In this document: one piece after another, positions 454-5,138 of the stretch
How the letters are laid out: every line of letters begins with the position of its first letter
How positions within the stretch are numbered: position 1 is the first letter of the stretch
Origin: a virus
IMG/VR virus record: IMGVR_UViG_3300037882_001495
Coordinates: 1-30,252 of that record
Reading direction: 5' to 3' (one strand)
Length of the DNA: 30,252 nt
Made by a program: the position numbers and the translations under genes
The notes under the pieces: generated by a model
Seen by the model: the letters and a program-made list of their open reading frames with translations, nothing else
Databases searched by the model: none
Told to the model about the DNA's origin: nothing

Positions 454-1101
454 CTATATAATACTTACATCAACATCTAAACACCTCACTTTATTATGGT
501 TATTCCAATATGGAGGAGTTGCTCTAATGAATCTATTACCGTTTTCATGCGGTATAAAACGCATAGTTTTGCCATCTTTAAACCAATAATAACCACATTC
601 AACCTCTTCAATTTGTGTGCTTATAACCTTACCATAACCGTAAGCAGATTTTTTACCTAAATATCGGATATTTTTAAATAGTCTGTTTAATTCTTTTATG
701 CTGCTGTTGCTATTAAAAAACCCAATCATTTTATGCGTTAACAATAGCTGCATATTATTTTTATATGATCTATATTTGCCATTTGTTAAAACTGGACTGC
801 CATGAGTAATATCAATGTGATTAAGGTTAAAACTTTTTTTATAAAATTCACTTGCATAATTAAAGTTGCCTTCAGGCGATAAAGCTGATGCACAAAAAAT
901 TCTATGACCATTAATCTCACCCATTGTTATAGGGATAGGAATTTTATCTGGCACTGAATCTCTATCAAATATCCTCTTATCCTTCTCAATCTTGAGAGGA
1001 GTCATCACCCATGATAAAAGAGCGTCAATATGTATAGGGTCTGTAGGGTTAATATAAACGCCAGTGCCATCTAAATTAAAAGTGATTTTATAATTTACCA
1101 T
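454..1101 (-). CDS. csf3: Type IV CRISPR-associated protein Csf3 (Cas5-like)
   Basis: This is a RAMP-fold subunit expected to cap the 5' end of the guide RNA in a type IV effector complex. The 215 residues are of normal Csf3 length. Family-like signatures are an N-terminal FNLDGTGVYINP strand, the HIDALLSW segment (residues 24-31), a glycine-rich loop LGKKSAYGYGKV (148-159), a K-x-x-x-RFIP segment near 180 and a TPPYW motif (195-199). Cas5-like proteins of type IV typically end with such an R-x-x-P and PPYW region. The gene overlaps the cysH-like gene by 7 nt, with AGAGG as ribosome site 10 nt before the ATG. Identification rests on motif memory and context, not on a search. Confidence 0.8.
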   Translation of the reverse strand: MVNYKITFNLDGTGVYINPTDPIHIDALLSWVMTPLKIEKDKRIFDRDSVPDKIPIPITMGEINGHRIFCASALSPEGNFNYASEFYKKSFNLNHIDITHGSPVLTNGKYRSYKNNMQLLLTHKMIGFFNSNSSIKELNRLFKNIRYLGKKSAYGYGKVISTQIEEVECGYYWFKDGKTMRFIPHENGNRFIRATPPYWNNHNKVRCLDVDVSII

Positions 1102-1763
1102 AATCTTGTTACCTCTGATTGTTGTGTGCTATTTAAATGATCTAAGCCTCTTGTACTATAGCCATCATTTTTTATACGTGACGTTGTTCTTATGGTTAGA
1201 CCATAATTTTCATACAGATTTAAAACCTTCAATTTTTCTGTGGCTATATATGCTTGTAAATCAAGTATTTTCCAATCAGCCATAGGGCAAAATCTTTTTA
1301 TACCAATTTTATAAGTAAGAATATTTTTATCGCCTTTTGCCAAAGACATACGTCTTGCACGACTTTCATCTTTGCATAATCCTATAAAAACACCATCATA
1401 GCTATTTTCAAATGCCCACTGTTTGCCTTCATTTTTTAATTTTGATTTTAAGTCAAACTCATTTAATATATATTTTGCTTTACGGTGCTTTTTAAAAAAT
1501 GCGTCTGAAACAGTATCAAAATTTGCTATATATCTAGATTGACTGCTTTGCCAATGCACAACATCAATATCATCTTTAATTGATAATATAATATCACCCA
1601 TCACAAGGCTATCTTTACCCCAAGACATTGAAATCAAAGGGTTTTTACATGATGTCAGCATTTCTGCAATATTATCTTTGGTTTTTTTTAACCTGTCCTT
1701 ATACTTAATTAAATGGCTATATATAAGCCCTTGATTTAGTTGTTTTTCATATATTGCTTGCAT
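1095..1763 (-). CDS. CysH-like PP-loop (PAPS reductase family) protein of a type IV-B locus
   Basis: This 222-residue protein belongs to the adenine-nucleotide alpha-hydrolase / PAPS reductase family. It has a PP-loop SMSWGKDS (45-52) for binding an adenine nucleotide, a GLCKDESRARRM segment (128-139) and FCPMADWKILDLQAYI (158-173), which matches the P-x-x-x-W-x-x-x-D-x-x-x-Y-I signature. The C-terminal Cys motif of true sulfonucleotide reductases (ECGLH) is absent, so sulfate reduction is unlikely. CysH-like genes are a known companion of type IV-B CRISPR loci, where their role is unresolved. It overlaps csf1 by 17 nt and csf3 by 7 nt, indicating translational coupling. A strong AGGGGGT ribosome site precedes the ATG. 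Confidence 0.85.
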   Translation of the reverse strand: MQAIYEKQLNQGLIYSHLIKYKDRLKKTKDNIAEMLTSCKNPLISMSWGKDSLVMGDIILSIKDDIDVVHWQSSQSRYIANFDTVSDAFFKKHRKAKYILNEFDLKSKLKNEGKQWAFENSYDGVFIGLCKDESRARRMSLAKGDKNILTYKIGIKRFCPMADWKILDLQAYIATEKLKVLNLYENYGLTIRTTSRIKNDGYSTRGLDHLNSTQQSEVTRLW

Positions 1764-2469
1764 CTTTCGTACCCCCTGAATTTAACTCCTCCTTTGATGG
1801 TAATAAATAACATAATAATTTATATAAAGGAGTTTTATATTTATTTTTAGCCCATTCTAAAAATTCTAAATTTATTTTTATATTATCTAATTTTTTTGAT
1901 TTAATATAAATATCATAATTCTCTAACTGAGGGCGACTTATGTTATTATTTAAAAAATAATTTAATTTTTCCCACCAATCTCTTGTATAATCCATATTAA
2001 CATCAACGATGAGTGTCTCAAAAAGCCACTTGTTTGTGTTAAAATTTACTGGTGCTAATAAACCACCATGTTTTTTATAAGATGTGGTAATATAAAGTAA
2101 CCATAATTTATTTTTAGGTGGATTGAATAATAAATCCCTCATAAAAGGCTTTTCTGTTTTGACATCTATCCGTTTAAAAGTAGTTTCATCACAATAAAAA
2201 CATGACATTCTTTGCCATTTATATTTTAATGCTATCCAAACATTGCAATTTATTAATTGACTTCTTGGTGCTGCTAATAAATCGTAATTCGTAAAACTTT
2301 CTGAAAGTGCAGTATCTCTTGGATAGCACTCGCCTTCAATTCCAGTCACACAGCAAACGCCGTGTGACTTTTCTAGTGGTATTAAATTTTTACCCTTTTT
2401 ATACTCAGGTGATGGATATTCAGGGCAGTTTTTATCTATTGTTTTACCGATTATCTCAAGGGCGTGCAT
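1747..2469 (-). CDS. csf1: Csf1-like type IV CRISPR protein with zinc-binding cysteines
   Basis: Csf1 is the presumed large (Cas8-like) subunit of type IV systems. The 240-residue product has the layout expected for the family: an N-terminal cysteine cluster (C39, C40, C48) and a second cluster (C75, C90, C93 in MSCFYCDE), an ESFTNYDLLAAP segment (57-68), a VWIALKYK helix, and a central LLYITTSYKKHGGLLAPVN stretch that resembles the T-S-x-K-K-H region of Csf1. The cysteines probably hold zinc. The gene overlaps csf2 by 14 nt and has AGGAG 9 nt before its ATG. It is divergent enough that a profile search is needed to separate Csf1 from a related phage protein. Confidence 0.75.
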   Translation of the reverse strand: MHALEIIGKTIDKNCPEYPSPEYKKGKNLIPLEKSHGVCCVTGIEGECYPRDTALSESFTNYDLLAAPRSQLINCNVWIALKYKWQRMSCFYCDETTFKRIDVKTEKPFMRDLLFNPPKNKLWLLYITTSYKKHGGLLAPVNFNTNKWLFETLIVDVNMDYTRDWWEKLNYFLNNNISRPQLENYDIYIKSKKLDNIKINLEFLEWAKNKYKTPLYKLLCYLLPSKEELNSGGTKDASNI

Positions 2470-3760
2470 TAGGTAATGCTCCTATATGGTTTAAATAGTT
2501 TAATATTTCTTGCTTTTTATCCTTTATAAAGTTTTTATAAAGACTTGAGTCTGGTATATTGTTTATTTCTATTTGACATTTTCCAAAGCCTTTATTGCCA
2601 CCACCACCAATATAACCTTTTTCAATCATTAATTCTAAGCCAAGCCCTAATGCAGACATTTCTATATCTTGAATATGTTTACTGTAATCTATACCTCCTA
2701 TTAATTTAGAGCCTTCTTTCAAGCATTCTTGTTGGTAAATCATGGATTGCGTTTTTTCTGCTTCTGAAACTTCTTCATTTGATTTTTCTAAATTTTTTAA
2801 TTCTTTTTTGCTAATTCTACCCTCATAACTATCAATGCGTACATTGAATATCATTGTAAAGAGTTCGGATGCTGGTATTTCTCCATTCCCCCATTCGTAG
2901 CATTCAGCCCTAAAATCTCCAACATTAAGTCTACCACTTAAAATTTTATCTTGGATTGCAGCACCGAGTAAAGATATATGAGGGAGTGCATCTCTAAAAT
3001 TTCTAATTCCCTCAGCATTGGCTGAATTGTTATTCCCTAACTCATCACCTATTTTTGTCTTTTTGCTTCCCATATCATTTAAAGCCCCACCACTATATAA
3101 AACATTATAAAACCATAATAAAACAGCAGGCTCTGAATCTGATACTTTTAAGCCTAAAGCCTCAATAAAGTGAATTGATAAAAGATCACGCATTAATCCT
3201 CTAAAGGCATTCCCTGAAAAATATGGTAAATCAATCATATTATTATTTTGTGTTAAAACAGATTTACGTCTAAATTGTTTAATATTGCCCAAAATATTAT
3301 CACCGCAATGTGATAAAGGTGATTTTAAAGTTATATTTATTTTTATTTGGTATTGCGGCGTTATATCAGGTGATACTCTATCTTTTAATTCATTTACAAT
3401 TTCAATATCTATATTACTTATGGCTGTTTCCAAATCTTCTTTTTTTAAAAATAGAAACATACCAGCAATTTTATGATGTTTTTTAATAAACTGCATAATG
3501 CTAAATAATTCATCTTTAGTGATTTTTAAAAAATTGCTGAATTCTTTATTATAAAGAGCTGTGACGGTTGTATTTAGCTGTTTTGCAAGTGTTTCTGCAA
3601 AATCTATGGTATTAGATTTTAAAGTAGCAACATATAATCTATCACTTAAAAAATCCTCCTTGCTGCGATTGATGTTTATATTGCTATGAATTGATAGGCT
3701 TCTAATAAAATTAAAGAAAGCTATTTTACTTTCGGTTGTAACATATTTTTTTTCATTCAT
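2456..3760 (-). CDS. csf2: Csf2 (Cas7-like) backbone protein with an N-terminal extension
   Basis: Csf2 forms the helical backbone that wraps guide RNA in type IV complexes. RAMP features begin near residue 138: a beta strand leading into LKSPLSHCGD (145-154), LPYFSGNAFRGLMRDLL (178-194), an internal LSGRLNVGDFRAECYEWG region, a SELFTMIFNVRIDSYEG strand pair, and the glycine-rich loop GYIGGGGNKGFGK (382-394). The first 135 or so residues are extra compared with a usual Csf2 of about 340 and appear mostly helical. At 434 residues this is a long version. It is the first gene of the operon, with AAGGAA before the ATG. Confidence 0.82.
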   Translation of the reverse strand: MNEKKYVTTESKIAFFNFIRSLSIHSNININRSKEDFLSDRLYVATLKSNTIDFAETLAKQLNTTVTALYNKEFSNFLKITKDELFSIMQFIKKHHKIAGMFLFLKKEDLETAISNIDIEIVNELKDRVSPDITPQYQIKINITLKSPLSHCGDNILGNIKQFRRKSVLTQNNNMIDLPYFSGNAFRGLMRDLLSIHFIEALGLKVSDSEPAVLLWFYNVLYSGGALNDMGSKKTKIGDELGNNNSANAEGIRNFRDALPHISLLGAAIQDKILSGRLNVGDFRAECYEWGNGEIPASELFTMIFNVRIDSYEGRISKKELKNLEKSNEEVSEAEKTQSMIYQQECLKEGSKLIGGIDYSKHIQDIEMSALGLGLELMIEKGYIGGGGNKGFGKCQIEINNIPDSSLYKNFIKDKKQEILNYLNHIGALPNARP

Positions 3761-3809: not shown

Positions 3810-3848
3810 TACATAAATATTACCTAAGTATTAAATAATATTTATGTA
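3810..3848. promoter_or_regulatory. 13-bp inverted repeat in the csf2 leader, likely operator or stem-loop
   Basis: TACATAAATATTA (3810-3822) is perfectly complementary to TAATATTTATGTA (3836-3848) across a 13-nt centre. It lies 50-88 nt upstream of the csf2 start and overlaps the candidate -10 element at 3835-3840. That placement suits a repressor operator or a regulatory leader hairpin. A similar TTTATGTAA / TTACATAAA pair recurs at 9189-9212. Confidence 0.6.
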
Positions 3849-3868: not shown

Positions 3869-3900
3869 GTTTCAATCCACACGCCCGTGAATGGCGTGAC
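3869..3900 (-). repeat. Solitary 32-nt type I-C-like CRISPR repeat
   Basis: Read on the minus strand this 32-nt element starts GTCACGCC, has a GGCGTGT half, and ends GTGGATTGAAAC. The stem CACGCC / GGCGTG (3880-3885 with 3893-3898 on the plus strand) is perfect. Length, the 5' GTC, the central palindrome and the ATTGAAAC 3' end are all typical of type I-C repeats. No second complete copy is seen. A partial copy, GGATTGAAAT on the minus strand, lies at 3919-3928, leaving only 18 nt between, too short for a normal spacer. The element sits between the preceding gene and the csf2 promoter, so it could be an orphan repeat, a mini-array or a captured host repeat. Confidence 0.7.
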
Positions 3901-3930
3901 TAATTAAGGTGTATTAATATTTCAATCCTT

Positions 3931-3953
3931 AAAAAAGCTGATTTTATGCTTTT
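3931..3953 (-). terminator. Probable terminator of the 202-residue gene
   Basis: On the minus strand AAAAGC and GCTTTT pair across a 9-nt loop that contains the stop codon of the upstream gene, and the stem runs into a T6 tract. It would separate that gene from the csf operon, although the stem is short and AT-rich. Confidence 0.45.
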
Positions 3954-4552
3954 ATTAAAGTATAAGAATTTTCTTCATCTAAAAGCCCAGTTTTTTCACA
4001 AACTGTTACAGATTTTACATAATCTCTAGCTTCTTGGTAATTCTTAAAAATTGATATTTCATCACTGTTTTCTTCTTTTACCCATTTACCTCCGTGTCCT
4101 TTAGGATATGTTTGTTCATAAGTCTTTGTATACCAAATTTTTATTTCGCCTTCATAATCTTCACTAGCTTCTTCAAGGTTTTCATTATTTTCAAAAATAT
4201 TATCAAAACCGAAACTAGCTAAAAATTCTTCTTCACTTACATCACCAGAATCCCAGTTTCTTTTTATATATTCTAATATAGTGACATCAGAATCTTCATA
4301 GTCTATTATGTTTTGATTATCGTTATTAATATAATGAAAATATGTTGTATCTGTAGTTTGATTATAATATCTATAAATGGTATATTCATCATTAGATGCT
4401 TTTTCACAGGCTTTTTCTTTAATTAGGGCTTTTAAAGCATCATCATAGCTATTTTTTTCTAAAGCCTCTTTAAAATCATCTTGATTTTGATACGAATTAA
4501 ATTTGATTAATTCTTTTAACATATCAATTAATATTCCTTGCTCTTCTGACAT
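3944..4552 (-). CDS. Acidic protein of unknown function, strongly expressed early gene
   Basis: I do not recognise this 202-residue protein. It is strikingly acidic, with runs such as DYEDSD and ENNENLEEASEDYEGE in the middle, and a more mixed C-terminal domain with a KGHGGKWVKEE turn and an EARDYVKSV helix. It has no signal peptide or membrane segment, so it is likely cytoplasmic. Its near-consensus sigma70 promoter (4614-4642) is almost identical to that of the next upstream gene. High acidity, small size, an early-type promoter and a place beside the csf genes fit a DNA-mimic or anti-defence protein, but this is inference from properties only. The start has a GAGGAA ribosome site. Confidence 0.75.
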   Translation of the reverse strand: MSEEQGILIDMLKELIKFNSYQNQDDFKEALEKNSYDDALKALIKEKACEKASNDEYTIYRYYNQTTDTTYFHYINNDNQNIIDYEDSDVTILEYIKRNWDSGDVSEEEFLASFGFDNIFENNENLEEASEDYEGEIKIWYTKTYEQTYPKGHGGKWVKEENSDEISIFKNYQEARDYVKSVTVCEKTGLLDEENSYTLIKA

Positions 4553-4613
4553 TTTAATTTCCTCGTTTTGTTTGTTTTTGTTAAAGTTTTTATAGGCTAC
4601 TGCTTATATATAT

Positions 4614-4642
4614 AATATACAGCTAAAAGATATATAAGTCAA
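4614..4642 (-). promoter_or_regulatory. Strong sigma70-type promoter of the acidic gene
   Basis: On the minus strand TTGACT (4637-4642) and TATATT (4614-4619) are spaced by exactly 17 nt. The stretch from CTTGACTTATATAT through the downstream TATATATAAGC and the leader with its purine-rich ribosome site closely matches the promoter at 5015-5043, indicating duplication of a promoter-leader unit. Confidence 0.8.
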
Positions 4643-4653
4643 GCATTGTTTTT

Positions 4654-4695: not shown

Positions 4696-4965
4696 TTACG
4701 CTTTAGGTACAAATATTTTACATTCAGTCGTTTCATCACCACCAAAGCGTTCAACTTTTATTGCTGCATCAATACAATATTCTGTTGCTGTTGACGCTTC
4801 TCTATTATATTTTAGAGTTGCAAATTTATAGTTTTCTAATCCGCAATCCATGCTCAAGATTTTAGATGTAATCATAAATGCAGCTATGTTTTCTAATGTT
4901 TTTATATCTGCTTGCTCTGTTGCAGCGTCCTTATTTAAGGACTTTATGTGTGTTATATTTATCAT
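4696..4965 (-). CDS. Small protein of unknown function with a duplicated early promoter
   Basis: The 89-residue product is not recognised. It has no signal peptide or membrane segment. Visible features are a helical N-terminal half (AATEQADIKTLENIAAFMI), a middle beta-like segment YKFATLKYNREA, and a C-terminal strand ECKIFVPKA with three cysteines in all. The second half looks like a small alpha-beta fold. It is read from a near-consensus promoter at 5015-5043, with a CGAGG ribosome site before the ATG. It is followed by its own hairpin and then by the promoter of the 202-residue gene, so the two genes appear to be separately controlled but co-regulated units. An early phage function is the simplest guess. 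Confidence 0.7.
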   Translation of the reverse strand: MINITHIKSLNKDAATEQADIKTLENIAAFMITSKILSMDCGLENYKFATLKYNREASTATEYCIDAAIKVERFGGDETTECKIFVPKA

Positions 4966-5014
4966 TTTTTTACCTCGTTTGTTTGTTTTAATAAGCTACC
5001 TTGCTTATATATAT

Positions 5015-5043
5015 AGTATAGCCAAAAGCAATATATAAGTCAA
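5015..5043 (-). promoter_or_regulatory. Strong sigma70-type promoter of the 89-residue gene
   Basis: On the minus strand TTGACT (5038-5043) and TATACT (5015-5020) are 17 nt apart. The surrounding sequence matches the promoter at 4614-4642, including TGCTTGACTTATATAT upstream and TATATATAAGC downstream. Confidence 0.8.
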
Positions 5044-5138
5044 GCACTTTTTTTATAACTTTTCACTTTTTTTGATTTTTTTTATAAGTTATTGATTCTT
5101 AAAATTTACATATAATGTCATTTATTTTACAAATTTTA

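Follow-up and report, generated by a model that had tools for sequence, protein, structure and literature searches.

Does a single CRISPR repeat in the leader of a phage type IV-B operon interfere with type I-C defence in the host, supply the Csf complex with RNA, or do both? The locus described here raises this question in concrete form, and does so in a field where the RNA used by type IV-B systems and the purpose of their complexes are an open question (PMC8175902, PMC7937560). The window that we analysed is the whole of the complete IMG/VR virus record IMGVR_UViG_3300037882_001495, 30,252 bp long, with a GC content of 33% and no terminal repeats. It carries tailed-phage genes (terminase, portal, MuF-type head protein, tape measure and tail tip), and its promoter sequences are of the bacterial type. 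At the left end lies a leftward operon with the order csf2-csf1-cysH-csf3 (Table 1), in which the type IV-B core genes csf1, csf2 and csf3 are all present together with the CysH-like accessory protein. The sequence-only reading had portrayed this operon as a Cas system without a processing enzyme or an array of its own and, in agreement, neither Cas6 nor an array was found; DinG was likewise missing from the operon. Upstream of csf2, and on the same strand, there follow in this order an AU palindrome, the 32-nt repeat, a 9-nt piece of the repeat tail and the genes for two orphan proteins of 202 and 89 aa.

Table 1. Coordinates of the features discussed in the text (positions in the 30,252-bp window; a dot marks a feature with no assigned strand).
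Feature	Position	Strand	Remarks
Csf3 (type IV Cas5)	454..1101	-	
CysH-like protein	1095..1763	-	accessory typical of type IV-B
Csf1 (type IV Cas8-like subunit)	1747..2469	-	
Csf2 (type IV Cas7)	2456..3760	-	434 aa; N-terminal Cas11-like extension of ~130 aa
AU-rich hairpin/palindrome	3810..3848	.	18 bp; between repeat and csf2
Solitary type I-C-like CRISPR repeat	3869..3900	-	32 nt; read 5'->3' GTCACGCCATTCACGGGCGTGTGGATTGAAAC
Repeat 5'-handle-like tail	3869-3879	-	11 nt, TGGATTGAAAC
Repeat stem arms	3893-3898 and 3880-3885	-	6 bp
Partial copy of repeat tail	3920..3928	-	9 nt, GGATTGAAA, exact; ~19 nt before repeat
Weak AAAAGC/GCTTTTTT hairpin	3930..3955	-	overlaps stop of 202-aa gene; predicted from sequence
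202-aa orphan protein	3944..4552	-	strongly acidic, net charge -25; ends 43 nt upstream of repeat
89-aa orphan protein	4696..4965	-	promoter-like TTGACT-N17-TATACT, 5043-5015

The RNA of the repeat was predicted to form a 6-bp stem capped by a 7-nt loop and followed by the 11-nt tail (-9.5 kcal/mol), with both the stem and the predicted Cas cleavage site intact. The pattern GTCACGCC-N6-GGGCGTGTGGATTGAAA recovered 22 stretches of bacterial genomes, arrays for the most part, and the closest array repeats, those of Parapusillimonas granuli and of a Firmicutes MAG, differed from the phage element at just 2 of the 32 positions (93.8% identity over the full length). The Parapusillimonas array, the nearest one checked, adjoins cas5c, cas8c, cas7c, cas4c and cas1c, so that the I-C subtype label was tested and not assumed. 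The length, stem and end of a type I-C repeat, which had been recognised from the letters alone, were thus confirmed, and the objection that no similar repeat might exist in any I-C host is answered by the Parapusillimonas locus, which does not necessarily represent the host of this phage. Since the 30/32 match is to repeats that form arrays, a chance palindrome could be ruled out. Taken together, these data support the conclusion that the element is a genuine I-C-type repeat lying beside an array-less and Cas6-less csf system. Its exact 31-nt core occurred in none of 84,980 species genomes and in no other IMG/VR contig.

The repeat is intergenic, lying between the minus-strand ORF that ends at 3944 and the one that starts at 3760. 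It had been placed directly before the csf operon; it is indeed upstream and on the coding strand, but 108 nt separate it from csf2, and the strong AU-rich palindrome occupies part of this gap. The GC content of the repeat (56%) stands out against that of its intergenic flanks (15%), which suggests that it was acquired recently or else has been maintained. No second full copy was found in the 30,252-bp record when up to 3 mismatches were allowed. The claim of a partial second copy of the conserved end at a distance of 50 nt held: the 9-nt word lies 50 nt upstream of the same word within the repeat, and the 30 kb contain only these two occurrences. The simulated chance of finding it in 200 nt of such sequence was 3e-4; by local alignment its significance was weaker (P ~0.009 per 100-nt flank), and the sequence upstream of it bore no likeness to the repeat. 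This tail piece may be the relic of a decayed second repeat. Solitary repeat units (SRUs) are defined by an identity of 90% or more across no less than 90% of a known repeat, by an intergenic position and by the absence, within 100 nt, of a second repeat that is full or clearly partial. Here the 30/32 identity extends over the full length, the position is intergenic and the 100-nt surroundings contain no full copy and one 9-nt tail piece, which is probably too short to count under the published partial-copy rule. A CRISPR mini-array needs two or more repeats that enclose a spacer, whereas a single full repeat is present in the phage.

A good sigma70-like promoter-like sequence, TTGACT-N17-TATATT, is located at 4642-4614 in front of the 202-aa gene, and near-identical promoter-like sequences, together with a AACAAACAAA(A)CGAGG leader, are common to the 202-aa and the 89-aa genes (4552-4650 and 4965-5050), suggesting their co-regulation. 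The libraries searched contained no relatives of the 202-aa protein, and its single-sequence AlphaFold model was unusable (mean pLDDT of 41). The hairpin over the end of this gene is, from its sequence, a possible weak terminator, and was not called by the terminator scan. There is no promoter-like site directly upstream of the repeat. The palindrome on the other side of the repeat, which was far stabler than shuffled sequences (z -5.7), is a possible operator or RNA element. The best candidate promoters for csf scored only 8/12, and a csf promoter using the repeat tail as its -35 box was rejected for want of an acceptable -10. The single Rfam match in the record, to bantam, fell inside a coding region and was attributed to chance.

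On balance, and with slightly better than even confidence, our analysis favours the interpretation of the repeat as an SRU and a putative RNA anti-CRISPR (Racr), directed at type I-C defence in the host. The repeat follows, at 43 nt, a small and very acidic gene with a good promoter-like sequence, an order similar to that of the acrIC5-racrIC1 pair, and this is among our reasons for favouring a Racr against I-C. RacrIC1 is a solitary I-C repeat that lies 11 nt downstream of acrIC5, belongs to the same transcript and inhibits I-C, and viral solitary repeats are an established class of which nine tested candidates inhibit CRISPR-Cas as Racrs (PMC10651486). RacrIF1 operates by titration of Cas6f and Cas7f, and the host possesses the matching subtype in 83% of the published Racr cases. 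In our scan of IMG/VR, I-C-type repeats occurred as a solitary copy in at least 91 stretches and as members of arrays in at least 29, indicating that the class is common in viruses; of the solitary copies that were examined, about half were located outside long ORFs. As a separate observation, a mini-array of the I-C type, with one spacer between two repeats, was seen in the structural gene region of a 242-kb phage contig (L032:10562) and of a near-identical shorter one (L031:6902).

We infer that the repeat is transcribed, processed by Cas5c and inhibitory to I-C. The transcript would probably be that of the 202-aa gene, with the repeat as its 3' part, or would start from an unrecognised promoter nearby. 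Host Cas5c would bind the repeat stem and cut at its base, and Cas7c and the other Cascade subunits would then assemble on useless flanking RNA, being thereby titrated off the real crRNAs, so that the phage could escape interference. The csf operon and both orphan genes may accordingly form one counter-defence island. The sequence-only reading had proposed that the phage borrows the I-C repeats or the Cas5 nuclease of its host; engagement of the host I-C system stands as the most likely reading, but its likeliest form is an RNA decoy, an option absent from that proposal. Even if the repeat proves to be only a Racr, one probable counter-defence island would still bring together the IV-B cassette, two small orphan genes and an RNA anti-CRISPR, and the 202-aa acidic protein would be marked as an anti-CRISPR candidate.

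Comparison with known systems showed that the Racr class itself is already known and that the placement in the leader of a IV-B operon is new. In the Bifidobacterium pseudocatenulatum prophage that carries RacrIC1 (PMC10651486), a single phage I-C repeat likewise closely follows a small protein gene and has the same orientation; that gene encodes AcrIC5 and not an orphan acidic protein, no IV-B operon follows, and the activity of the repeat is proven, whereas the repeat studied here is a candidate. With RacrIF1 and other viral SRUs it shares the presence of a single repeat in a viral genome and no full second copy; RacrIF1 belongs to another subtype, and SRUs have been described as lacking association with cas genes, in contrast to this csf-associated one. 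The Fuxivirus IV-B locus (PMC10848311) is similar in combining a virus-borne csf operon, a CysH-like gene and CRISPR repeat material, and different in that it belongs to an archaeal virus and holds two repeats and a spacer, while our tailed phage has one I-C-type repeat and bacterial-type promoters. The type IV-B system of Mycobacterium sp. JS623, known from its Csf complex (PMC7937560), also comprises csf1, csf2, csf3, a Cas11-like part (a weak match in the phage) and a CysH-like accessory, with no array and no Cas6. In the phage, unlike in JS623, the Cas11-like part is fused to the N-terminus of Csf2, the gene order is csf2-csf1-cysH-csf3 and a solitary repeat occupies the leader.

The 9-nt tail piece lends some weight to a different account, in which the repeat is a non-functional leftover of a host I-C array or of a viral mini-array captured by recombination, since the piece would represent a decayed second repeat at an 18-nt gap, less than the ~34 nt of a normal spacer; no relative displayed conservation of the element either. 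We hold this to be unlikely. The plausible I-C letters at 32 of 32 positions and the perfect stem argue against a relic, as a neutral GC-rich one would erode in surroundings of 15% GC, and intergenic space is scarce in phages. None of 80 terminase relatives carried csf genes or the repeat, a scan of IMG/VR with this phage's own Csf2 returned no csf2 relatives, and the relatives of the terminase and portal, ~23-44% identical, were uninformative as a clue to the host. Likewise, among the matches listed, those to the phage from 479 I-C spacers, taken from 45 loci that carry I-C arrays, were all short and at chance level. A part as a recombination or integration site that exploits host CRISPR arrays has been suggested for SRUs in work cited in PMC10651486, and seems highly improbable here, given a homology of 32 bp only and, next to packaging, head and tail families, no integrase among the families identified in a subset of the ORFs, on a contig that may represent just part of the genome.

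The same repeat could instead serve the IV-B complex, if host Cas5c cut it and the Csf proteins loaded the resulting RNA, through its 5' handle or its 3' stem, as a guide or assembly anchor; we judge this distinctly unlikely. It would agree with the co-oriented location of the repeat, 108 nt ahead of csf2, and with the lack of an array and of Cas6 in IV-B systems, whose source of RNA is an open question (PMC8175902, PMC7937560). The idea is kept alive by the mini-array of the published viral Fuxivirus IV-B locus (PMC10848311). Equally doubtful is the proposition that the repeat is a dedicated RNA element of the IV-B complex of this phage, made in the csf leader, by which IV-B parasitises host I-C processing. 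If true, a natural RNA partner would have been identified for an array-less IV-B system. Against these proposals, the sole purified IV-B complex, that of Mycobacterium, was not enriched in crRNA (PMC7937560), Csf3 has no sequence similarity to Cas5c, and no spacer-like target was found in the phage. Drawing on plasmids, genomes and viruses, we also assembled ~25 other loci that combine csf2 with further csf genes (L033-L037, L080, L081, L085-L094, L254, L293, L294 and L301-L306), which were scanned for solitary repeats and mini-arrays (by a simpler scan for L301-L306, L293 and L294; several contigs were short). With the exception of L254, these loci had no comparable element, and the proposed use by the IV-B complex thus found no support among them. 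The L254 prophage was promising as a sign of a general link between IV-B and I-C repeats, its cassette being separated by ~1 kb from a I-C array of 11 repeats (L254:1-5000); the 11-kb contig showed no I-C cas genes. This link was rejected on account of its closest relatives L293 and L294 (Csf2 identity to L254 of 62% and 50%, respectively), viral IV-B cassettes on contigs of 43-53 kb without any I-C or other CRISPR repeat, and for that reason the L254 array is probably neighbouring host DNA or a coincidence.

Less likely still is a CreR-like or cis-regulatory role, with the repeat as part of a degenerate guide, or with host Cas5c or Cascade acting on the csf leader so that csf responds to host I-C. 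The repeat does lie inside the csf leader, with the 18-bp palindrome between it and csf2, and if csf and the gene upstream shared a transcript, cleavage would part the two. A CreR guide partly matches its target promoter, and no such match was detected within the phage: when the flanks of the repeat (35 nt downstream, 18 nt upstream) were compared with the rest of the phage, their best matches did not surpass those of shuffled sequences (P 0.43 and 0.28, respectively), and no 8-nt seed match was present elsewhere in it. These values make it less likely that a guide or CreR-like RNA targets the phage's own sequence, and both possibilities, a single guide and the repression of cas promoters known from mini-CRISPRs, lost ground, the protospacer search with the two flanks having found none within the phage.

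Returning to the csf genes, the N-terminal 130 aa of the phage Csf2 matched Cas11_0_IV weakly (E 0.01), and its relatives also have longer Csf2 proteins. A Gloeobacter plasmid bears a IV-B-like locus (L086:6165-6956) with cas6 and CysH-like genes and no array in 11 kb. In none of the viral loci (this phage, L254, L293 and L294) was a stand-alone cas11 gene seen. The Cas11-like helical region is N-terminal in the phage Csf2 (2456-3760) and apparently an internal insertion, at residues ~36-170, in the Csf2 of L254:3065-4270, L293:8001-9212 and L294:7938-9242. A Csf2 frame of 486 aa in a Bacteroidota genome (L305/L306) may be another Cas11-like case.
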